From positions 1 through 32,065 of the forward strand of contig NZ_PRLH01000015.1 in NCBI RefSeq assembly GCF_003013815.1: DNA of 32,065 bases, written 5' to 3'. A program made the position numbers and the translations under genes. The notes beneath the pieces are model-generated. The model was given only the letters and a program-made list of their open reading frames with translations, was not told the DNA's origin and ran no database searches. This DNA is from Cyanothece sp. BG0011. GTDB lineage: Bacteria; Cyanobacteriota; Cyanobacteriia; Cyanobacteriales; Microcystaceae. This document shows, piece after piece, positions 11,183-20,875 of this stretch (the stretch's first letter is position 1; the number at the start of each line of letters is the position of its first letter).

Positions 11183-11521
11183 ATGGATACCAACAAAACC
11201 CAAAATAGAGTACAAGCTTATTTAAGTAATTCTGTCTATCAAGCTTTTCGTGAATATTGTAAAAAGGAAAAATTAAACCAATCACAAGCAATGGAGAAAA
11301 TACTTTCTAATTTTTTATTACAGAAAGAGAAAGTATATATCATTGCAGACAATAACCAAGATAAAATAAAAGACTTAGAATCTAGACTGAGTCAATTAGA
11401 AGCTATTATAAAAACTAAAGATTATATGATTACAAACACTAAAGATTATTTAGAGAAAGCAAGAGTTAATACTTATTCTATTAAATTAACCAGTAAAAAT
11501 ATTAACAAAATCATGAAGTAG
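11183..11521 (+). CDS. Small protein with RHH-like N-terminus and coiled coil
   Basis: A 112-residue basic protein. Residues 8-45 (RVQAYLSNSVYQAFREYCKK, then NQSQAMEKILSNFL) fit a ribbon-helix-helix DNA-binding pattern: strand, helix, turn, helix. Residues 60-98 are a heptad-like coiled coil (DKIKDLESRLSQLEAIIKTK). Such plan is seen in small cyanobacterial regulators and in plasmid partition-type proteins. It stands alone, downstream of strongly palindromic DNA that it might bind itself. Regulation is inference. Confidence 0.55.
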   Translation: MDTNKTQNRVQAYLSNSVYQAFREYCKKEKLNQSQAMEKILSNFLLQKEKVYIIADNNQDKIKDLESRLSQLEAIIKTKDYMITNTKDYLEKARVNTYSIKLTSKNINKIMK

Positions 11522-11739
11522 CTATCTTATTTTAAGAGTAAATTGATCATACAAAATCAACTATAATTAATCAATTAAAAAATAATAAAATTGATAAAAA
11601 ATGATACCAACCATTGACTCTGTAAATAAAATTGTTAACTTATAAGATGATTTTTCAACAATCTGAAAAAAGACTTAAAAGATTGCAGTATTTGTTGAGA
11701 CTTTCCCTAGACTTAAAGAACAAAACACAAAAAAGATAA

Positions 11740-13878
11740 ATGATTAGCAATTTATCTTCACAAGAGTTAATCATTCAGCTTGCTATACTCACACACTCAA
11801 AAAAAATTATGGGAAGACTCAGGAAACATCAGGAGAACTCTGGGAAATTATTGTCACAAAAAAGAACCCATGAGAAGAAACCATTAAAGCGAATTTTGAC
11901 AAGTTTATTTTTGGGAATAATTAGCTTAGAAACAACTTTACCTTTAGTGGCTAATTCCCGTAATCCTCAAGAAACCGTGAATTGTGATATGTTAATCGTA
12001 GGGGCTGGTTTAGCGGGTTCGGCGGCAGCTTATGAGGGTTTATTAGCAGGAAAAACCGTTTGCTTAACCGAAATTACCGATTGGGTTGGGGGACAAATTT
12101 CCTCACAAGGAACCTCAGCGTTAGACGAAGGAAAACGACAGCGATCGCAACAACATTTCCCTAGAGGATATAACACCTTAAGACAGAATATTGCCCGTCT
12201 CTACAATCGGCAAAATCCTGGGGAGTGTTGGGTCAGTGAAAGTTGTTTTCTTCCTTATCATGGTCATCAGTTATTGTATCAACAATTAAAAGAAGCGGCA
12301 CAATGGGGAAGAGGTACGTTAAAATGGTTTCCTTCTACGGTGATTAAAGACGTAGAATTAAGTGAAGATGGAAAATTAATTAACAGTGCGATCGCTATTC
12401 AACACAGTCCCAAACCTGGAACCCCTCATCTCAACAAAGAACCCCTTTCTCAAACCATTGAAGACGCTTATAGCTACGAAAACTCTCAACGGTTTAACAA
12501 GAAAATTATTCGCTTCGAGTCTAAATCTAAACAAGGAAGTCCCACCGACTGGTTTGTTATAGAAGCGACAGAAACCGGTGAAATCGTCGCTTTAGCAGAC
12601 GTTCCCTACCGTTTAGGACTCGATCCCCGTAGTCATCTTAACCCCTCTTCTCCCACGGAAAAGGGCGATCCCTATTGTGTGCAAGGGTTTACCTATCCGT
12701 TTGCAATGGAACGAACCGCAACTCCTCAACCTCAGACGAAACCCTCCTTTTATGAACAGTACGAACCCTACTACGGTTATGACAGCGATCGCAGAATGGC
12801 TTATTTTGACCTAGTCTTTACCTATCGACGCATCTGGAGTAACGAACAAGGAAAATTTGTCAAAGTGGGGCCGATGAAAGTTCATGAACCCACCCCCGGC
12901 GATATTTCCATGCAAAACTGGGTATGGGGTAATGATTACCGTCCCGGAACTTCTCAAGATAACTTAGTTTATAGTCGTAGACAACTCGAACAAACCGGAC
13001 AACTCGAACCCGGCGGTTGGAAAGGGGGACTCCGTACAGATGCTTTACGCAAAGGCGAAGAACTCTCTAAGGGGTTTTACTATTGGTTAGTTGCCGGTAC
13101 TACTGATTCTCGTTTAGGCTATGGGGTTAAACGGCCTCATCCTAACCATCGCTTTTTACAAGGGTTAGATTCTCCCATGGGAACCAGTCACGGGTTATCC
13201 AAATACCCCTATATTCGAGAAGGAAGACGCATTATCGGTAGGCCCTCTTACGATCATCCTCAAGGGTTTACTATTAACGAGATCGATATTTCCACTAAAG
13301 ATTATTGGCATGATTTTTATCGCACTTCTTTACCTCGTCCCATGTATCAGTTGGTGTGGTCAACTATTGCGGATTTAGAATCAAAATTTGTCACTGCTAA
13401 CGATCGCCCGTCTTATATGATCACTCGACGCACCCATGCGACAGTTTACCCTGACTCCGTGGGAGTCGCCGACTATATGATTGATTTTCATCCCTGTATG
13501 GCCTTATCTCCCCCAGAAACGCGAGGCAACCGGGAACGTCCAGGGGTTCGTGTTGCTCACGGTGGGGCCCATCCGGCACAAATACCTTTGAGGGCTTTAA
13601 TTCCGCAAAAAGTGGATAATTTGATTGTCTCAGGGAAAAGTATTGCCACCAGTCATATTGCTGCGGCTGCTTATCGGGTACATGGGTTTGAATGGTCTGT
13701 CGGTGCTGCAGCCGGTACTTTAGCTAGTTTTTCTCTAGAACAAGGCATTTTACCCTATCAATTAGTAGATAATTTACCCCAGCAAGAAGCTAAATTACAA
13801 CAGTTACGTCGACGGTTAGAAAGTAATGGGAATCCGACAACATTTCCCCGTGACATAATGTTTAGTCTTCGTCGTTAA
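11740..13878 (+). CDS. FAD-dependent oxidoreductase with secretion-type N-terminus
   Basis: This 712-residue flavoprotein belongs to the FAD-dependent oxidoreductase family (PF12831-like). The dinucleotide-binding motif is at residues 84-100 (MLIVGAGLAGSAAAYEG, with GxGxxG). TEITDWVGGQISSQG follows, where FAD-disulfide family members have a Cys after the GGQ. A second FAD-contact region near the C-terminus reads DNLIVSGKSIATSHIAAAAYRVHG. Residues 48-72 (KKPLKRILTSLFLGIISLET) look like a signal peptide or anchor, so the real start may be the ATG at 11809, 24 residues before it. The reaction is unknown. It is monocistronic and followed by a cyanobacterial repeat. Confidence 0.82.
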   Translation: MISNLSSQELIIQLAILTHSKKIMGRLRKHQENSGKLLSQKRTHEKKPLKRILTSLFLGIISLETTLPLVANSRNPQETVNCDMLIVGAGLAGSAAAYEGLLAGKTVCLTEITDWVGGQISSQGTSALDEGKRQRSQQHFPRGYNTLRQNIARLYNRQNPGECWVSESCFLPYHGHQLLYQQLKEAAQWGRGTLKWFPSTVIKDVELSEDGKLINSAIAIQHSPKPGTPHLNKEPLSQTIEDAYSYENSQRFNKKIIRFESKSKQGSPTDWFVIEATETGEIVALADVPYRLGLDPRSHLNPSSPTEKGDPYCVQGFTYPFAMERTATPQPQTKPSFYEQYEPYYGYDSDRRMAYFDLVFTYRRIWSNEQGKFVKVGPMKVHEPTPGDISMQNWVWGNDYRPGTSQDNLVYSRRQLEQTGQLEPGGWKGGLRTDALRKGEELSKGFYYWLVAGTTDSRLGYGVKRPHPNHRFLQGLDSPMGTSHGLSKYPYIREGRRIIGRPSYDHPQGFTINEIDISTKDYWHDFYRTSLPRPMYQLVWSTIADLESKFVTANDRPSYMITRRTHATVYPDSVGVADYMIDFHPCMALSPPETRGNRERPGVRVAHGGAHPAQIPLRALIPQKVDNLIVSGKSIATSHIAAAAYRVHGFEWSVGAAAGTLASFSLEQGILPYQLVDNLPQQEAKLQQLRRRLESNGNPTTFPRDIMFSLRR

Positions 13879-13881
13879 ACC

Positions 13882-13946
13882 GTAGGGTGGGCAAATCAAA
13901 AAATTATCTTACCTACTAATAATGTCAAAAACTTTGCCCACCTTAC
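13882..13946. repeat. GTAGGGTGGGCAAA inverted repeat (cyanobacterial intergenic repeat)
   Basis: GTAGGGTGGGCAAA at 13882-13895 pairs with TTTGCCCACCTTAC at 13933-13946, 14 bp with a single G-U pair, around a 37-base loop. It starts four bases after the oxidoreductase stop. GGTGGGCA/TGCCCACC palindromes are widespread between genes in cyanobacteria. It may also act as the transcript end, although no T tract follows. A partial relative (TTACCCACCCTAT) occurs at 19223-19235. Confidence 0.7.
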
Positions 13947-14034
13947 AAAACTATTAACGATATAATTCGTTAATTACTATTAAGTCTCAGAAAATATTGT
14001 TAAAATTATCATAGGTTAGATAGAAGTTTAATTA

Positions 14035-14490
14035 ATGAGTTCCATTGACAGCATGATAGAAACTGACGAAAACAATAATATGACTAACCTTTATGAAACA
14101 GATTTCATAGAGTGGACGATTAAACAAGCTCAAGCATTAAATGATCATAATATAAAAGCTCTTGATTGGGATAACTTAAAAGAGGAGATAGAAGACTTGG
14201 GAAAAGAGCAAATTAATGCAGTCCATAGCTTTCTAAAACAAATTATAATACACAGATTAAAACTAGACTATACTAACGAGATTCTATCACGGGGACATTG
14301 GATGGATGAAATTGACGATTTTCAAGACGAAATTGAGAGAAGATTAACGAAAACCCTGTTAAACAAAATCAATATTGAACCTGAATATGAGCGAGCAAAG
14401 CGTAAGGTCTTAAAATCATATAAGATTAACTTACCTGATCAATGTCCTTATACTTTTGAAGATTTAATGACGAGATTACCAGATAATTAA
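14035..14490 (+). CDS. DUF29 family protein
   Basis: A 151-residue DUF29 protein. The hallmark LYETDFIEWTIKQAQAL begins at residue 18, followed by LDWDNLKEEIEDLGKEQ and the His-rich helix FLKQIIIHRLKLDY. The family is abundant in cyanobacteria and has no established function. The domain begins close to the ATG at 14080 (MTNLYETDF), so this could be the real start instead of 14035, whose extra 15 residues are acidic and not family-like. It converges on the defence-like operon with only nine bases between the stops and no terminator. Confidence 0.85.
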   Translation: MSSIDSMIETDENNNMTNLYETDFIEWTIKQAQALNDHNIKALDWDNLKEEIEDLGKEQINAVHSFLKQIIIHRLKLDYTNEILSRGHWMDEIDDFQDEIERRLTKTLLNKINIEPEYERAKRKVLKSYKINLPDQCPYTFEDLMTRLPDN

Positions 14491-14499
14491 TAAAATTAA

Positions 14500-14979
14500 T
14501 TACCAGTTATGATTGTTATCCATTTCTGTTTTAAGAATTTCAACATATCTAATCAAAAATTCTTCAGCAAAATAAGGTTTAGATATTTTGGACTGTAAAT
14601 AGTCAAACCCTCCACTTGCATAAGCGTTCATTTTATTCATTCCGTCATCAGTTAGGTTAGTAATGCTGTTAGGATCAATGAGTTTGACTAAAATTTTTTT
14701 AGCCTGACTTTTATCATCTAAAGTTAATCCTTTATCTGACAATTCTGCTTGTATTAATAACCCAATAATTAAATTCTGTTGACTTTTATAGTCTGAGACA
14801 AAATAATCAACAAAATCAGCAGAATGACTGGGATCTGGGGTACTTTTATTTTTGGAAGCTAGTCCCATCATTAAACATAGATAGTATAAATCAAATTCAG
14901 TATTTATAGGCGGTTTTTGCTTCTTGATCTTAGAAAACCAGTCTCTTGCATCGTGACGTATGCGAAATGATTTAGCCAT
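14500..14979 (-). CDS. Unrecognised protein, last gene of the ATPase/nuclease-helicase operon
   Basis: This 159-residue protein has no family I can name with confidence. It is largely helical and basic at the start (KSFRIRHDARDWFSKIKKQK). It continues TEFDLYYLCLMMGLASKN, an arrangement loosely like that of the small DndE-type proteins of DNA phosphorothioation systems, which also begin with a basic strand and a helix ending in CLxxGL. The rest (LIIGLLIQAELSDKGLTLDD, DYLQSKI) gives no catalytic motif. A ribosome binding site (AAGAGGT) precedes the ATG, and the gene follows the ATPase gene by 15 bases. It is probably a small DNA-binding or bridging subunit. That role is inferred. Confidence 0.8.
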   Translation of the reverse strand: MAKSFRIRHDARDWFSKIKKQKPPINTEFDLYYLCLMMGLASKNKSTPDPSHSADFVDYFVSDYKSQQNLIIGLLIQAELSDKGLTLDDKSQAKKILVKLIDPNSITNLTDDGMNKMNAYASGGFDYLQSKISKPYFAEEFLIRYVEILKTEMDNNHNW

Positions 14980-14994
14980 AATAGTTACCTCTTT

Positions 14995-16968
14995 TTAATA
15001 GTCTAATAAATCAAAATTATTAAAATAGTCTTCACCTTCAATAATGACACAATTTTTATTATCAATTACGCCTTTTGATGGTAAAGCTTTTTCTAATTGT
15101 TGGGTTGTTTCTGTTTTTCGGAAGACAGTCACAAAGTTGATATTCTCTGCATTGTTAGCTAATGTATCTGTAAACCCTTCTCGTTCAGAAGAAATAGTAA
15201 AAGCAATAAATTGTTCACATAAATCGGGTATTATTTGACCTATTTCTCGTCTAACTGTAATATCAATAGAGTTTGCTGGACTATCAACTAATAAAGGAAA
15301 TTGATGTTGTCCTTCTGATAATAACGTTGTTAGAAAAATATAACCAACTGATAAGGTTTGTCCCATACTTGCTGCTTTTTGTCCCTCTAATGTAATTGAG
15401 TGGTTAATCTCACTAATGGAAATGGGATCACGATATAATATTTGTTCTAATTTTTGATTACATTTATCACGGATAGACTCTCTAAGGTTATTATTTGCTT
15501 TCGTTTTAGCAAGTTTTAGAATCTTTTGTAAAATCTCTTTTTTTCGACGCATTTCTATTGTATTAGAAATTTCAGCAAGTTTGATTTCTTCATCTTCTAA
15601 CCATTGTTTTAATGCTTTTAAACAATTTGTTTTTTCATAAGACTTTGGTTTATCATTATGATTAGGTTCCCTTTCAATTGCTTCTAATTCTAACTCAATT
15701 TTCTTCTTTATTTCCTTCTTTTCATCAAGTTGTTCCTTCCATTTTTTGACTTCATCAGTACCTTGAGAAATACTCAGATCATAATAATATTTATATTCTG
15801 TTTCAAGGTCTTGTTTTTTCGTCATCTCTTTCTTTAAATCGATTACACCGTTATTTATTTTTTCTACATTATAATCTGTGTTTATTAAGTCTCTTCTTAT
15901 ATCTTCTTTTAAACTATTTAAAAAAATAGCAGTATTATCGGAAAGATATAAATTAGCGCGTTGTTTAATAATTTCTCTTATTTCATCATTTAATTCTCTA
16001 CCACAAATACAATCTTTTTCATTACAAAGATCAATAAAAAATTGACGAGATGCTTTTTCAGGCAATTCAGCTTTATCAAATTTATCTTTTAATTCAATCA
16101 GTGACTCTCTAAATTTTGGATGTAATAATTCAGGTTTTCTAATGTCTTGCATTAATTGTTCAACATTGTTTTTAACTGTATTATTAGTATCATTTATTTT
16201 GATTTTTGTTTCATTTATTATTTCGCTGATATCTTGATTTTCATTTGTATGAAATTCTATTTTTGATTCTAAATCTTCTATTTCTTTCTCAAGTTTAGAA
16301 TATTTACGCCGTCTAGTTTTCAGAATATCTTCTATGGTTTGAATACGTTTTTTTAACTCATTTACTTTATTTCTTTGTCGTGTATGGCCCCTTGTACATT
16401 GTGCTTTATAAGCAGTTTCTCTGTCCCAATGACTTTCAACATCCTTATGCAATTCATCTAATAAATATAACTGAAATAAAGAATCAATTGCTTGAGATGC
16501 TTCTGACTTGCTGGAGTCTAATAATTCTTGAACAAGTTCCCCATCAAAAATAAATAATCTCACAAATTTAGGGTTTAAGAATCTTCGGATATTAATGGGT
16601 AATTTGTCATAATCAGTTATTCCCCCAACTTTAGAATAACTGGAAAGATTATCAACAATTCCTTCTTCAAAGTTAAACATTAATTTAAAGGTTAAAAACT
16701 CGTTATCAACCCGTAAATTTAAGGTAAATGAGCCTTGAGGATTATTGTCCCCATGACGACGATAACTTTTAATTGTTTCTGCATCCCACTTACTTACTTC
16801 TCCTGTCAAAGCAGCACGAATTAAGCTTAAAATTGTGGTTTTTCCTGTACCATTTGGCATTTGGATTAAAGCAACATGGGCAGGGTTTTCACCAGACATT
16901 AAATTGATTTCCATATCTGGACATCTTAACCCTTTACATTCCCAACTGATAATGTCAATCTTCATCAT
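14995..16968 (-). CDS. SMC/DndD-like ATPase with Cys-x-Cys centre
   Basis: A 657-residue ABC-type ATPase of the SMC/Rad50/DndD group. The Walker A motif is QMPNGTGKTT at 36-45. RLFIFDGELVQELL (137-150) matches the conserved FDGE stretch of DndD-type ATPases. Long coiled coils run from about 195-270 and 355-500. Between them, C315 and C-I-C-G at 320-323 resemble half of a zinc hook. The signature region is GQTLSVGYIFLTTLL (536-550). Walker B is FPLLVDSPANSID (557-569), with VDSP rather than the usual acidic pair, as in other DndD-like ATPases. It would hydrolyse ATP while clamping DNA. Its start overlaps the 64-residue gene by 14 bases, indicating coupled translation. Confidence 0.85.
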   Translation of the reverse strand: MMKIDIISWECKGLRCPDMEINLMSGENPAHVALIQMPNGTGKTTILSLIRAALTGEVSKWDAETIKSYRRHGDNNPQGSFTLNLRVDNEFLTFKLMFNFEEGIVDNLSSYSKVGGITDYDKLPINIRRFLNPKFVRLFIFDGELVQELLDSSKSEASQAIDSLFQLYLLDELHKDVESHWDRETAYKAQCTRGHTRQRNKVNELKKRIQTIEDILKTRRRKYSKLEKEIEDLESKIEFHTNENQDISEIINETKIKINDTNNTVKNNVEQLMQDIRKPELLHPKFRESLIELKDKFDKAELPEKASRQFFIDLCNEKDCICGRELNDEIREIIKQRANLYLSDNTAIFLNSLKEDIRRDLINTDYNVEKINNGVIDLKKEMTKKQDLETEYKYYYDLSISQGTDEVKKWKEQLDEKKEIKKKIELELEAIEREPNHNDKPKSYEKTNCLKALKQWLEDEEIKLAEISNTIEMRRKKEILQKILKLAKTKANNNLRESIRDKCNQKLEQILYRDPISISEINHSITLEGQKAASMGQTLSVGYIFLTTLLSEGQHQFPLLVDSPANSIDITVRREIGQIIPDLCEQFIAFTISSEREGFTDTLANNAENINFVTVFRKTETTQQLEKALPSKGVIDNKNCVIIEGEDYFNNFDLLDY

Positions 16969-17149
16969 AATTTTGTACTTTTATCGATTCATAAATTAAT
17001 TCTAGTCTTTGTGCTTTATCACTATCAGATAAAGTATTTTTATTGATAGCTTCCAGCCAAGCAATGATCTGTCTAGAAACTGAGTCATCTTGACCCATTT
17101 CTTCAACAGAATCCTCAATTGCTTTTTTAATTTCATGTTCAATAGACAT
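16955..17149 (-). CDS. 64-residue acidic operon protein overlapping both neighbours
   Basis: A small acidic protein (SIEHEIKKAIEDSVEEMGQDD, later RLELIYESIKVQNYDED), predicted almost fully helical. Its start lies within the last 11 bases of the nuclease-helicase gene, and its end overlaps the ATPase start by 14 bases. That double overlap argues strongly that it is a real gene made at a fixed ratio to its partners. I recall small proteins of this size annotated as associated with DNA modification systems, but I cannot confirm the match. It may be an adaptor or inhibitor of the ATPase or nuclease. No motif supports a more exact call. Confidence 0.75.
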   Translation of the reverse strand: MSIEHEIKKAIEDSVEEMGQDDSVSRQIIAWLEAINKNTLSDSDKAQRLELIYESIKVQNYDED

Positions 17150-19160
17150 CGCTGTTTATCCTCCTAGTTTGTGATAATTCAGTTAACCAAAGATAACGCT
17201 CCTCATCAGCACTTAATCTATCTTTTTGTTCCTCACTCTCAACAACAAAGTCGATAATTGTTGCTTGTTTATTAGGATTTTCTGTATCAGTTCTAAGACA
17301 ACGACCAATTCTTTGTATGGTTTCTAATTTCGCTCTTGCTGATGAAAATATAATAACATTTTTTAGTCTTTTAATGTCGATTCCTTGAGAAATTCTATGA
17401 CAAGCAATTAAACAATCAATCTCTCCTTGTGCAAATTGTTTAAGATAACTTGGATCTTCCCCTGAGTAGTAAGTACGATAACGATGAGTATGTTTATGAA
17501 TGGTATTTAAAAGCTGATCTCCGTACCATTTTTCTTCAACAAAGATAATAGTTGACTTGAGAATATCAGGATTACTATCAACAAAATAAGCAAATACTTC
17601 TGGCTTTTTTTCAGCTAGTTTATAAACTTTAGAAAGTGCTGTCCATATTTCTTCTTTTGTCATAGGATTCCCTTCTTTTTCTCTAGCGGCTTTTTGTTTA
17701 TAAACTTGCTCACGTCTTTGTTTATCTCCATCGGTTAATTGATATCTCAAGGGGATATAATTAAGCTCACAAAGGATTCCTCTTTCGATAGCTTCTTTTA
17801 AACCAAATTGAAAAAATACTTCTCCAATTTCCTCAAAAATAAATTGTGTTCCTTCTTGATCATATTCTCTTTCTGGTGTCGCACTTAACCCTAAACGATA
17901 ACCAAAATTTTGATGTTTACCTTGCAAGTTTTTACAGTTTTCTGGACTGCCCAAACCATGAACTTCATCATGAATAATTATCATTCTTTGTTTCTCATCA
18001 TCTTCAATCTGATTTAATAGTTTACTAAGATTTTGACGAGAAATAATGATAACAGCTTTGTGATGATTGTTAATAAATTTTTCTAATTCGTGATTATTTT
18101 TATAGTGTTTAAATACCCGAAATCTTTGCTCTCGTTGAATTGCCCAACCTAGTATTTCTTGTGACCATTGATCTAATAAATCATTGCCATCTGTACTAAT
18201 AATAATACTGTCAATTTTCTGCTCATCATCTAGTTTGGTTAAAATTTTTATACTGGTTCGTGTTTTACCTGTTCCCGTGGCCATTTCTAAAACACCATGA
18301 TGCACGTTTAAGAATTTTTTTACCGCTTCTTCTTGGTGTTGCCAACGCTGATCTTTTTCTACAGTTTGTGAAATCTTTTTAAACTGATGTGACTTATTGG
18401 TGTTAGAATATAGAGGATTATGATTAGGGGCATAATCTTTAATAAATTTAATGGTTTGCTGAGAGAGAGAAAGAGTTTTTAAACCTGTAGCTTTTCCTAA
18501 CCAAGCTTCCTCAAATTCTTCTATTTTAATATCAATTCTTTCTTGATCGGCTGTTAGCCAACTTCGATAAACATCAATAGATTCATAATTCAAATTATGA
18601 CCATTAAAAGACTCATTCGCTGAACCCGTAAAAGCGATCGCATCTCCCCAGGGAAAGTCAAAAATTCCTATTTTTTTATGAAACAATCCCATTTGTTCTA
18701 AATTTTGTGGAAAAGCAAATTTCAAGATTAATCTATCATTAGCTATCATCCAAGCTAATAACTTTTGTCTCATTTCAAAAGAATCATTATTTAGCGCGTC
18801 TCTTACAACCTGATCGGCAATAATTTGTTTTAATTTCTTTCTTTCCTTTTCATCAGTCGCGATGCTCAAGGTTTTTTTATCTTCCTCTGATAACTCAGGA
18901 GAAATTATTAATTTAACCATCACATCATCTAAAATAAGATGAGCGATCGCATTATTCCAACTTAACAAAGCACTACTAGAAAAATACCCAACAGCGCGAC
19001 GATATTGATGACAATGTTTTAAACAAGGGGTAAAAAAATCTTCACCTAAATTAGTTTTACCACTGCGATAATGGTTGTTAATATTTCTGATAACCTCTTT
19101 CCCTTGTTTATTCCAAGGGAACTGATAATCTATGATTGAAGAATTGAACATAGAATACAA
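17139..19160 (-). CDS. Phospholipase D-type nuclease fused to SF2 helicase (phosphorothioation-restriction-like)
   Basis: The 673-residue protein joins a PLD nuclease domain to a DEAD/DEAH helicase. The N-terminal part (YRSGKTNLGEDFFTPCL, YRRAVGYFSSSALLSW, LIISPELSEEDKK) closely resembles proteins annotated as DNA phosphorothioation system restriction enzymes. Its single HxK(x4)D motif is complete: H161, K163, D168, followed by GSANES at 179-184, so a dimer would form the active site. Helicase motifs are Walker A MATGTGKT (293-300), DEVH (398-401), SATPE (426-430) and QRIGRCLR (616-623). It would translocate on DNA and cut it. It leads the operon. Two HIP1 sites lie inside it, unlike the other three genes. 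Alternative: a repair helicase-nuclease. Confidence 0.85.
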   Translation of the reverse strand: MYSMFNSSIIDYQFPWNKQGKEVIRNINNHYRSGKTNLGEDFFTPCLKHCHQYRRAVGYFSSSALLSWNNAIAHLILDDVMVKLIISPELSEEDKKTLSIATDEKERKKLKQIIADQVVRDALNNDSFEMRQKLLAWMIANDRLILKFAFPQNLEQMGLFHKKIGIFDFPWGDAIAFTGSANESFNGHNLNYESIDVYRSWLTADQERIDIKIEEFEEAWLGKATGLKTLSLSQQTIKFIKDYAPNHNPLYSNTNKSHQFKKISQTVEKDQRWQHQEEAVKKFLNVHHGVLEMATGTGKTRTSIKILTKLDDEQKIDSIIISTDGNDLLDQWSQEILGWAIQREQRFRVFKHYKNNHELEKFINNHHKAVIIISRQNLSKLLNQIEDDEKQRMIIIHDEVHGLGSPENCKNLQGKHQNFGYRLGLSATPEREYDQEGTQFIFEEIGEVFFQFGLKEAIERGILCELNYIPLRYQLTDGDKQRREQVYKQKAAREKEGNPMTKEEIWTALSKVYKLAEKKPEVFAYFVDSNPDILKSTIIFVEEKWYGDQLLNTIHKHTHRYRTYYSGEDPSYLKQFAQGEIDCLIACHRISQGIDIKRLKNVIIFSSARAKLETIQRIGRCLRTDTENPNKQATIIDFVVESEEQKDRLSADEERYLWLTELSQTRRINSDVY

Positions 19161-19393
19161 CGATAATTTTCTTTAGCATTCCCAAAAATTCCTAATCTGT
19201 ATCATCACAGAAGCAAAAAACCTTACCCACCCTATAACAGTTGTCTAGTGAACTGTTGAAAATAACAATTTTTTGACTAACTTGTTTTTCTTGTCAAAAC
19301 GATGTTGCAAGCGCACACCTTTTCTATTCTGTATAGAATATCATGTCAAGTCAAGAAAAAGCAATCATTTTTAACATTAATTAGGGAAATATT
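19161..19393. promoter_or_regulatory. Spacer upstream of the nuclease-helicase operon, with two dyads
   Basis: This spacer should hold the operon promoter on the minus strand and the end of the XPB-like helicase gene transcript. AACAGTT-N8-AACTGTT is a perfect dyad at 19236-19257. TATTCT-gtat-AGAATA is a second at 19325-19340. Either could be an operator. A half-copy of the GGTGGG-type repeat (TTACCCACCCTAT) lies at 19223-19235, directly beside the first dyad. I see no gene here and no convincing terminator. Confidence 0.4.
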
Positions 19394-20875
19394 TTACTCT
19401 TCTTCTCCCCATTTCGTTTTAGGTTTTTCAGCAGCCCTCAAAGACTTTTTAGACTTCATGTCGTAGGTTGAGGGTAACACTTCTAATTGTTGAGGTTTGG
19501 GGGTTTTTGTTCCTTCTTTTCTACGCTGTGATGTTCGTTCCTCGCTGGTGTCTTCTGCGACAATTTCATAAAGAGTTGCTAACTTATTTTTTCCCTTTCC
19601 TTTCCGCAAAATACGACCCAATCTTTGAACATATTCCCGTGCCGAACTGGTTCCCGATATAATAATAGCAACTTTAACCTCTGGCACATCAACCCCTTCA
19701 TTTAAAACATGGGAAGTCACTAAACTTTTATAAATACCTTCTCGGAACCGTGTTAAAATATCGTGACGCTCTTTTACTGGGGTTTGATGGGTAATAGCAG
19801 GAATTAAAAAGTCTTGAGAAATGCGGTAAACTGTCGCATTATCATTGGTAAAAATTAATAAAGAATCGTGATGATGTTCACAAACTAATTCTGCTAAAAT
19901 TCTTAATTTTCCTTCCGTACCGGCCGCGATTTCTTTCGCTTCTCGATGGGCTAACATTGCCCGTCTTCCGGCTGCACTTCTGGCACTCGCTTTGACAAAA
20001 ATTTGCCAGCCATTTAAACTACTCAAAGAAATATTAGACTTGCGTAAAAAATCATTACGAATTTGTATCGCCTTCTCATAACTTTTTCGTTCTGTTTGTG
20101 ATAGTTTTACTTTAATTTCTACTACTTCGTGATCCGCTAAAGTACCCCCCGCTAGTTCTTTAACTCCCTTGCGATAAACCACCTCACCAATTAAACTATC
20201 TAAGTCACGATGACTACCATCAGCCCTTTCTGGAGTAGCAGTTAAGCCTAAGCGATAGGGAGAAATAGCGTATTCTGCAATAACACGAAAAAAATCAGTA
20301 GGAAGGTGGTGACATTCATCAAATATCTGTAATGCGTAGCGATTTCCTAGCGTTTCTGCGTGAATAGCTGCACTGTTATAAGTTGCAATTAAAATAGGAC
20401 TGCGATCTCGCGATCCTCCTCCCAATAACCCCACCTCAATGTCAGGAAAAGCCGCACTCATTTGAGCATACCATTGGTGCATTAAATCCAAGGTTGGCAC
20501 TATAATTAAAGTAGTGCGAGGTGTGGCGATCATCGCTAACTGGGCTAAATAGGTCTTTCCCGCGGCCGTGGGCAACACCACCACCCCTTTACGTCCCGAA
20601 TGTTTCCAAGCCTCTAACGCCTCCGTTTGATGGGGATAAGGTTCCCTTTCAAAACTAGGGGTTAGGTCTAACGGAAAAAAGTCTTTAGCTTCATCAATTA
20701 AGCTAAGATTATCAGCCTGTAAGGTTTCAATTAACGTCCGATAGTAGATAGCCGGAACCCTAAACTTTTCGATGCGATCATCCCAGGTAGCGAATTCAAT
20801 CCAAGCTTTACCCCTTGGAGGTGGATGTAAAATTAAAGTTCCGCGATCGTATTTCAGTTTACTGGGTCGTGCCAT
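19394..20875 (-). CDS. XPB/Rad25-like DEAD/DEAH helicase
   Basis: A 493-residue superfamily 2 helicase like archaeal and bacterial XPB (ERCC3-type) proteins. An N-terminal damage-recognition-like region (residues 1-80) precedes Walker A PTAAGKT, the DECH box in FDECHH, GLTATPER and the C-terminal motif VI YVQRLGRILRKGKG. The C-terminal 45 residues are charged and rich in Lys, Arg and Glu. In cyanobacteria and archaea such helicases are often partnered by a Bax1/DUF790 nuclease, which is not visible here. It lies 233 bases upstream of the nuclease-helicase operon on the same strand, so it could be its neighbour by chance or share a DNA-handling role. DNA repair is the most likely function. Confidence 0.85.
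   Translation of the reverse strand: MARPSKLKYDRGTLILHPPPRGKAWIEFATWDDRIEKFRVPAIYYRTLIETLQADNLSLIDEAKDFFPLDLTPSFEREPYPHQTEALEAWKHSGRKGVVVLPTAAGKTYLAQLAMIATPRTTLIIVPTLDLMHQWYAQMSAAFPDIEVGLLGGGSRDRSPILIATYNSAAIHAETLGNRYALQIFDECHHLPTDFFRVIAEYAISPYRLGLTATPERADGSHRDLDSLIGEVVYRKGVKELAGGTLADHEVVEIKVKLSQTERKSYEKAIQIRNDFLRKSNISLSSLNGWQIFVKASARSAAGRRAMLAHREAKEIAAGTEGKLRILAELVCEHHHDSLLIFTNDNATVYRISQDFLIPAITHQTPVKERHDILTRFREGIYKSLVTSHVLNEGVDVPEVKVAIIISGTSSAREYVQRLGRILRKGKGKNKLATLYEIVAEDTSEERTSQRRKEGTKTPKPQQLEVLPSTYDMKSKKSLRAAEKPKTKWGEEE

Follow-up and report, generated by a model that had tools for sequence, protein, structure and literature searches.

The DNA analyzed here, called the window, is the entire contig NZ_PRLH01000015.1 of Cyanothece sp. 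BG0011 (32065 bases; contig C213 of its own genome). It carries a pbeABCD cassette, made up of four coupled open reading frames (ORFs) that span positions 14500-19160, all on the minus strand in the ORF list of the window. The first two ORFs overlap by 11 bases (17139-17149), the second and the third by 14 bases (16955-16968), and a 15-base gap (14980-14994) precedes the last one. A first-pass annotation, made from the sequence alone, had described such a coupled four-gene unit, and the ORF coordinates agree with its overlaps and gap. It had also pointed to the PbeABCD module for comparison. This comparison was run and, from profile matches and motifs, PbeABCD is the identity of the cassette, with the gene order A-B-C-D. 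The window genes are therefore a CxC-ABC-ATPase system of a kind already in print, a fresh example of a published system and neither a novel system nor one devoid of modification genes. In what follows, G designates a genome, L a sequence stretch and C a contig of the window's own genome.

The Nuclease-Helicase PbeA

pbeA (17139..19160, minus strand) encodes a 673-residue protein in which an HKD endonuclease domain of the phospholipase D (PLD) type is fused to a superfamily 2 (SF2) helicase. Its start is a TTG codon at 19160, and an ATG is found as the fourth codon, at 19151. The protein matches the PADLOC PbeA model PDLC02703 over residues 26-648 (E 2.2e-257, 853.7 bits). Pfam, with which eight window proteins covering 11183-20875 were scanned, assigns its N-terminal part to PF13091 (PLDc_2, residues 57-201, 27.7 bits for a cut-off of 27) and places the start of the helicase domains, ResIII and Helicase_C, at about residue 260-274. 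In an alignment of 17 PbeA rows, the catalytic HKD motif reads HKKIGIFD (residues 161-168; 18657..18680, minus strand). HxK is retained in 16 of these rows, the 17th being cut by a contig end, and in most of the more distant ones the D of the motif is shifted one residue later. In the same alignment, the helicase Walker A motif is MATGTGKTRTS (residues 293-303; 18252..18284, minus strand), and the helicase motifs GTGKT, DEVH, SATP, and QRIGRCLR are all intact.

Thus, the catalytic and helicase motifs, together with the PADLOC match, bear out the predicted PLD nuclease-SF2 helicase fusion. The likeness of the N-terminal part to phosphorothioation-linked restriction enzymes, also proposed, is not found, since the match to TIGR04095 covers residues 273-664, within the helicase part (175.6 bits, below the cut-off of 600), and the N-terminus is PLDc_2. 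The TIGR04095 enzyme is related to the window PbeA through its helicase core; unlike PbeA, a TIGR04095 protein that scores over the cut-off (503 residues, in L197) has no PLD match. The solved structures related to PbeA by sequence in a profile search are XPB-type and other helicases. Two distant matches to PbeA, at 28% and 26%, occur in phage records.

The Small Protein PbeB and the ATPase PbeC

pbeB (16955..17149, minus strand) encodes a small acidic protein of 64 residues belonging to the Sp-CxC family. The protein noted at first as acidic is indeed a member of PF20304 (7.3e-14, 52 bits, cut-off 27.5), which Pfam describes as “small protein from certain CxC ATPase-based DNA modification systems,” and PbeB is the sole match in its own genome at E <= 0.001.

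pbeC (14995..16968, minus strand) encodes a 657-residue ABC ATPase of the CxC clade, with a coiled coil and a CxC hook. In PADLOC, PbeC comes first (8.9e-22, 75.6 bits) and DndD second (4.1e-19, 67 bits). The protein is not a canonical DndD, its TIGR03185 score being 49.5 bits for a cut-off of 245.85. It carries a Walker A motif, GTGKTT, and a Walker B motif, LLVDSP. The CxC centre, C320-I-C322 (16003..16011, minus strand), was located from the aligned PbeC rows; it is retained in 12 of 13, that is in all those that span the centre, the remaining row being an N-terminal fragment. With these motifs and the PADLOC ranking, the early description of an ATPase resembling DndD and structural maintenance of chromosomes (SMC) proteins, with a CxC centre, holds. 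In the AlphaFold model, built from 4 sequences, long helices flank the CxC with low confidence (predicted local distance difference test score, pLDDT, 59.9), and a profile search of solved structures with PbeC gave no match at E <= 0.01. No DndFGH-type protein is among the PADLOC matches listed for the cassette proteins (the ATPase being represented by the best 25 of its 31).

The Fourth Protein, PbeD

pbeD (14500..14979, minus strand; 159 residues) is the fourth member of the cassette and sits in the PbeD position. Seventeen homologues, of 151-163 residues and 30-61% identical to the window protein, were aligned. Their genes lie downstream of pbeC; the hosts are cyanobacteria and proteobacteria, together with one Priestia and one haloarchaeon. 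Judged by these 17 homologues, the fourth ORF is a real gene. The idea that it stands apart from known systems is not supported, as it occupies the PbeD position, though no library family fits it: none was found for the window protein in Pfam, NCBIfam, PADLOC, or PHROGs, nor for its homologues in Pfam and PADLOC, where a KNOX2 match (1 of 18 proteins, E 0.013) was dismissed.

PbeD was also compared with DndE. Alignment of the two families with hhalign gave a probability of 0.1% (6 vs. 7 sequences) or 0.2% (18 vs. 11 sequences). A DndE hidden Markov model (HMM) run on 18 PbeD proteins reached 2.4 bits at best, three of the proteins exceeding and 15 staying below the 99th percentile of 3600 shuffles (1.3 bits; maximum 5.5). 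The AlphaFold model of PbeD, made from 4 sequences, is too poor for use (pLDDT 53.5); Foldseek with this low-confidence model found no match at E <= 0.001, and a profile search of solved structures with PbeD gave nothing below E 0.28.

Phosphorothioation Genes Elsewhere in the Genome

Two other contigs of the same genome carry DndB-family genes, dndD, dndE, and both ends of dndC. Toward the end of contig C180, three DndB-family ORFs match PF14072 (278, 261, and 51 bits, cut-off 29.1); their best score with the DndB model TIGR03233 is 271.7, below its cut-off of 328. One of them is a homologue of the gene adjacent to pbe in G197, G473, and G540 (712-726 bits). These ORFs are followed, at the contig end, by about the first 84 codons of dndC, 77% identical to the DndC of G197. 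At its end, contig C217 carries what appear to be the 21 final codons of dndC (LSWGTIKFGQPINNPENENNP vs. LSWGTIKFGQPIDNP in the relative SU3, a cyanobacterium), beyond which come a spacer, DndD (679 bits, cut-off 245.85), and DndE (136.6 bits, cut-off 71.85). Because this end aligns to the dndC-dndD junctions of SU3 (95% over 724 bp) and of a Crocosphaera metagenome-assembled genome (MAG; 89% over 1198 bp and 85% over 78 bp), we infer that C180 and C217 very probably adjoin inside dndC, roughly 1.3 kb being unassembled. At E <= 1, the genome yielded nothing more of dndC, save one weak hit in another frame, of 322 codons.

Hence, the lack of modification genes reported at first sight is confined to the locus, the dnd genes being unlinked and on two other contigs. 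This agrees with the suggestion of a unit that detects a DNA modification produced by genes at another site.

Neighbourhoods in Relatives

Thirteen cassette loci were read in the order to which the strain belongs, Cyanobacteriales. The order A-B-C-D is whole in eight, although in one of these, that of G663, an early in-frame stop interrupts pbeA. The same layout is found in two Rhizobium plasmids, in Halorubrum, and in Priestia, and gene 2 is annotated as “CxC ATPase DNA modification system associated small protein” in the first three of these four. In Ramlibacter (L028), pbeA-B-C-D is whole and dnd genes adjoin it. Six plasmid matches were found and five were opened, Natribaculum being the one left out. 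In all five, dnd adjoins pbe: two from Rhizobium, then Halorubrum, Priestia (with dptF in addition), and Methylobacterium (L171, found with phmmer). Within the order, pbeA-B-C-D is followed by dndC and dndD in G409 (L202) and G557 (L206). In G197, G473, and G540, pbeABCD is followed by a DGQHR/DndB-family gene, a dndB-like gene, a further gene, and dndC; G473 carries one extra gene. In this group, dndD comes after dndC where the stretch reaches (G197 and G540), and the further gene is an HNH gene in G197, the one scanned. The best-matched archaeal relative of PbeA is that of Halorubrum trapanicum, 38% identical. The four genes could have proved not to be kept together in relatives; instead, their order is shared.

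Distribution and Linkage to dndC

PbeA was surveyed with PDLC02703 at E <= 1e-60 in samples of 386 genomes of the phylum and 388 of the order, and was detected in 15 and 37 of them, respectively. The cassette is thus patchy (37/388 in the order), at variance with the alternative of ordinary repair proteins present in every relative. dndC scores over the cut-off in 30 of the 37 PbeA-positive order genomes, is a contig-end fragment in two (G000 and G612), and is not detected in five.

Physical linkage was used in place of co-occurrence because dndC is nearly universal in the order: at E <= 1e-25 it is present in 93 of the 105 order genomes of the phylum sample (the G000 fragment counted). For the same reason, co-occurrence of PbeA and dndC was rejected as evidence of partnership inside the order. 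dndC lies on the same contig within 10 kb of pbeA in 18 of the 37 genomes, where random placement would give about 0.1. The linked genomes are G197, G116, G473, G540, G598, G604, G553, G445, G409, G542, G596, G469, G557, G635, G481 (second copy), G491, G526, and G591. Not every cassette in this group is complete and unbroken; PbeA of G598, for example, has two stops. As to the 19 cassettes without dndC in 10 kb, 12 have it elsewhere over the cut-off, two have a contig-end fragment, and five have none; many lie on short contigs, so that non-linkage is certain only in nearly complete assemblies (G312 and G496). Counting cassettes as solitary by distance therefore overestimates orphans, as 12 of these 19 have dndC elsewhere and two have a contig-end fragment of it.

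Gain, Loss, and Decay

SU3 is syntenic with the window on both sides of the cassette site (87.5% and 89.8% in the adjoining blocks). There, 97 bp replace window positions 14740-19390, and pbeD is reduced to its 3′ part; the sole cassette remnant found at that locus corresponds to 14485..14739 (minus strand; blastn 87.8% over 255 bp to L026). SU3 retains a full-length dndC match (710 bits). The closest cassette is that of the Crocosphaera MAG (L027; PbeA 1244 bits), with pbeC as two ORFs and different flanking genes. G612, from the window's genus (L208), has fragments of pbeA and pbeC only, with the same flanking genes as the Crocosphaera MAG. G629, which is listed in the window's genus, has dndC at the coordinates of that MAG, so that the strain is probably a Crocosphaera-like cyanobacterium. 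A split or cut pbeC is seen in L203, L201, L205, and L207. In the G197 cassette (L106, 6492-10377), pbeB lacks its end and pbeC its N-terminal part; the adjacent dndC and dndD are full-length.

Comparison with Published Systems

A study by Krishnan, dated 2020, is said to deal with a CxC ABC-ATPase/clade-2 DndE system. In the haloarchaeon Haloterrigena jeotgali A29, pbeABCD was reported beside dndCDEA (Xiong, 2019, PMC6459918). According to that report, DndCDEA-PbeABCD lowers SNJ1 plaquing about 10^4-fold in a phosphorothioation (PT)-dependent manner, and loss of any one pbe gene impairs protection, deletion of pbeA leaving a little. The window resembles this system by its four genes in the same order, its protein types, and the presence of dnd in the genome. 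Proteins 2 and 4 have 66 and 152 residues in H. jeotgali vs. 64 and 159 in the window; dnd and pbe are adjacent in the former but on separate contigs here, and the likeness is one of layout and type. The same report counts 553 pbeAC, 233 of which have dndCD within 10 kb; the other 320 comprise 155 with a methylase and 165 with neither.

Rakesh (2024, PMC10853773) equates PbeABCD with the CxC ABC-ATPase system, regards PbeD as a DndE protein, and indicates that CxC systems also occur apart from DndD-centred ones. The window shares with this system the HKD nuclease with an SF2 helicase, the small protein, and the CxC ATPase; the DndE nature of the fourth protein comes from that paper and is not reproduced for the window. 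DndFGH, like PbeABCD, has reportedly been studied as a partner of Dnd phosphorothioation; the two have no sequence homology according to Xiong (2019, PMC6459918). In cyanobacteria, Jian (2021, PMC8569181) reports that PT restriction systems are absent and suggests protection from oxidative stress or epigenetic regulation as possible first roles of the dnd clusters; PbeABCD is not mentioned in the main text of that paper.

Role of the Cassette

We consider it likely that the cassette is the restriction half of a DNA-phosphorothioation defence system, the modification half being the strain's own dndB-dndC-dndD-dndE locus elsewhere in the genome. From the initial interpretation, a defence or restriction-type unit tied to DNA phosphorothioation stands, and the absence of modification genes does not. 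In the proposed mechanism, DndCDE and a housekeeping cysteine desulfurase would put sulfur on host DNA at short motifs, these marks acting in trans with the cassette. A PbeC dimer with PbeD would scan DNA for unmarked target motifs. PbeA would then come into play: its SF2 motor would travel along DNA, and its single-HKD nuclease, probably dimeric, would cut or block the invader so that viral replication halts. The small PbeB may serve as an adaptor or a regulator. That the system is antiviral and depends on PT is taken from the literature on the archaeal system (PMC6459918).

Several observations weigh against this reading. In the haloarchaeal study, no cleavage of viral DNA was observed, which argues against simple restriction (Xiong, 2019, PMC6459918). 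In the window's own genome, the cassette and dnd are unlinked, 14.5 kb and 12.9 kb of other sequence flanking the cassette, and dndC is known from its two ends only, its middle falling in an assembly gap. The published assignment of the fourth protein to DndE, a double ribbon-helix-helix protein, was not confirmed by sequence or by fold. Within the order, dndC is not enriched with PbeA (6 of 7 PbeA-positive vs. 87 of 98 PbeA-negative order genomes of the phylum sample, the G000 fragment counted). Finally, dndC was not detected in five of the 37 PbeA-positive genomes (G070, G500, G546, G564, and G654), and the module may therefore stand without it.

These same five genomes would fit a cassette that works alone, PbeC-PbeD sensing DNA structure or the state of a phage with no modification needed. 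SMC-like defence ATPases such as Wadjet and Lamassu act without DNA modification. In the published count, 165 of the 553 pbeAC have neither dndCD nor a methylase within 10 kb (PMC6459918). However, protection depended on PT in the archaeal system (Xiong, 2019, PMC6459918), and most of the locally solitary cassettes of the order have dndC elsewhere (12 of 19 over the cut-off, 2 of 19 as a fragment), which makes this explanation very improbable. Also very improbable is the alternative that the cassette works with a DNA methyltransferase encoded in the genome and not with phosphorothioation, a pairing that has been proposed for other CxC-ATPase systems having cytosine methylases. The C5-methylase family does have 11 matches in the genome and N6_N4_Mtase has 6, cytosine methylases stand beside some CxC systems (Rakesh, 2024, PMC10853773), and methylases lie near 155 of the 320 dnd-less pbeAC (Xiong, 2019, PMC6459918). 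Nevertheless, none of the C5-methylase and N6_N4_Mtase matches is on contig C213, other methylase families not having been searched, and the eight window proteins scanned (11183-20875) include no methylase, the rest of the window not having been scanned. Moreover, the nearest members of the subfamily often adjoin dnd, and dnd genes are present in the genome.

The cassette might also be a decaying relic, already silent and retained by chance. Decay is common nearby, as seen from the pbeD stub of SU3, the G612 fragments, and damaged pbeC in L203, L201, L205, L207, and L106. Yet all four window ORFs are open and the motifs checked are intact, so that we hold this to be highly improbable.

Beyond the likely role as restriction half of a phosphorothioation system, we tentatively propose, as a view with somewhat less than even chances, that PbeABCD is a movable plug-in on a resident, near-universal phosphorothioate epigenome of the order. 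The mark would be old and kept for other reasons; the cassette would come, use it in trans as a self-label from any site, and be lost again. If so, the cyanobacterial Dnd systems reported without restriction would be intermittently armed. Dnd systems of cyanobacteria, reported without restriction partners (Jian, 2021, PMC8569181), do sometimes have PbeABCD.

Neighbouring Genes and Related Loci

Just upstream of pbeA, on the same strand, lies an XPB-like SF2 helicase gene with a damage-recognition domain (19394-20875). It was considered as a fifth member of the cassette and rejected; SU3 has the helicase without the cassette. A DUF29 gene (14035-14490) is convergent with pbeD, 9 bp separating them, and window positions 13894-14484 have no counterpart at the syntenic SU3 locus. 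It was likewise rejected as a cassette member, being on the opposite strand and lacking a counterpart in SU3.

A second dyad, composed of a small protein and a CxC-bearing DndD-like ATPase, is present in the window's own genome on contig C201 (L155, 6025-7995), which ends after it. The dyad also occurs in L159, L161, L197, L199, and L200, the small protein having 57-119 residues across loci. Neither PbeA nor DndE was detected right next to the dyad in L159 and L161. In L197, L199, and L200, the dyad comes after a helicase gene and is located 2-2.7 kb upstream of pbeABCD; the helicase of L197, the one scanned, matches TIGR04095 with 653.8 bits.

Finally, in four small genomes of the phylum, PbeA-B-C and a fourth small ORF are directly downstream of brxP/sspD-like, sspB, sspC, and sspA genes. 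Three of these loci are contiguous (L117, L120, and L121), and L118 and L119 are two contigs of one genome. L117 was scanned with PADLOC, where its PP-loop gene scores 283 bits with BrxP and 55 bits with SspD; the other loci were judged by layout and sequence. SspABCD and PbeABCD are both named in published papers (PMC10853773, PMC12707154). In these loci, Pbe goes with the Ssp phosphorothioation system in place of Dnd.

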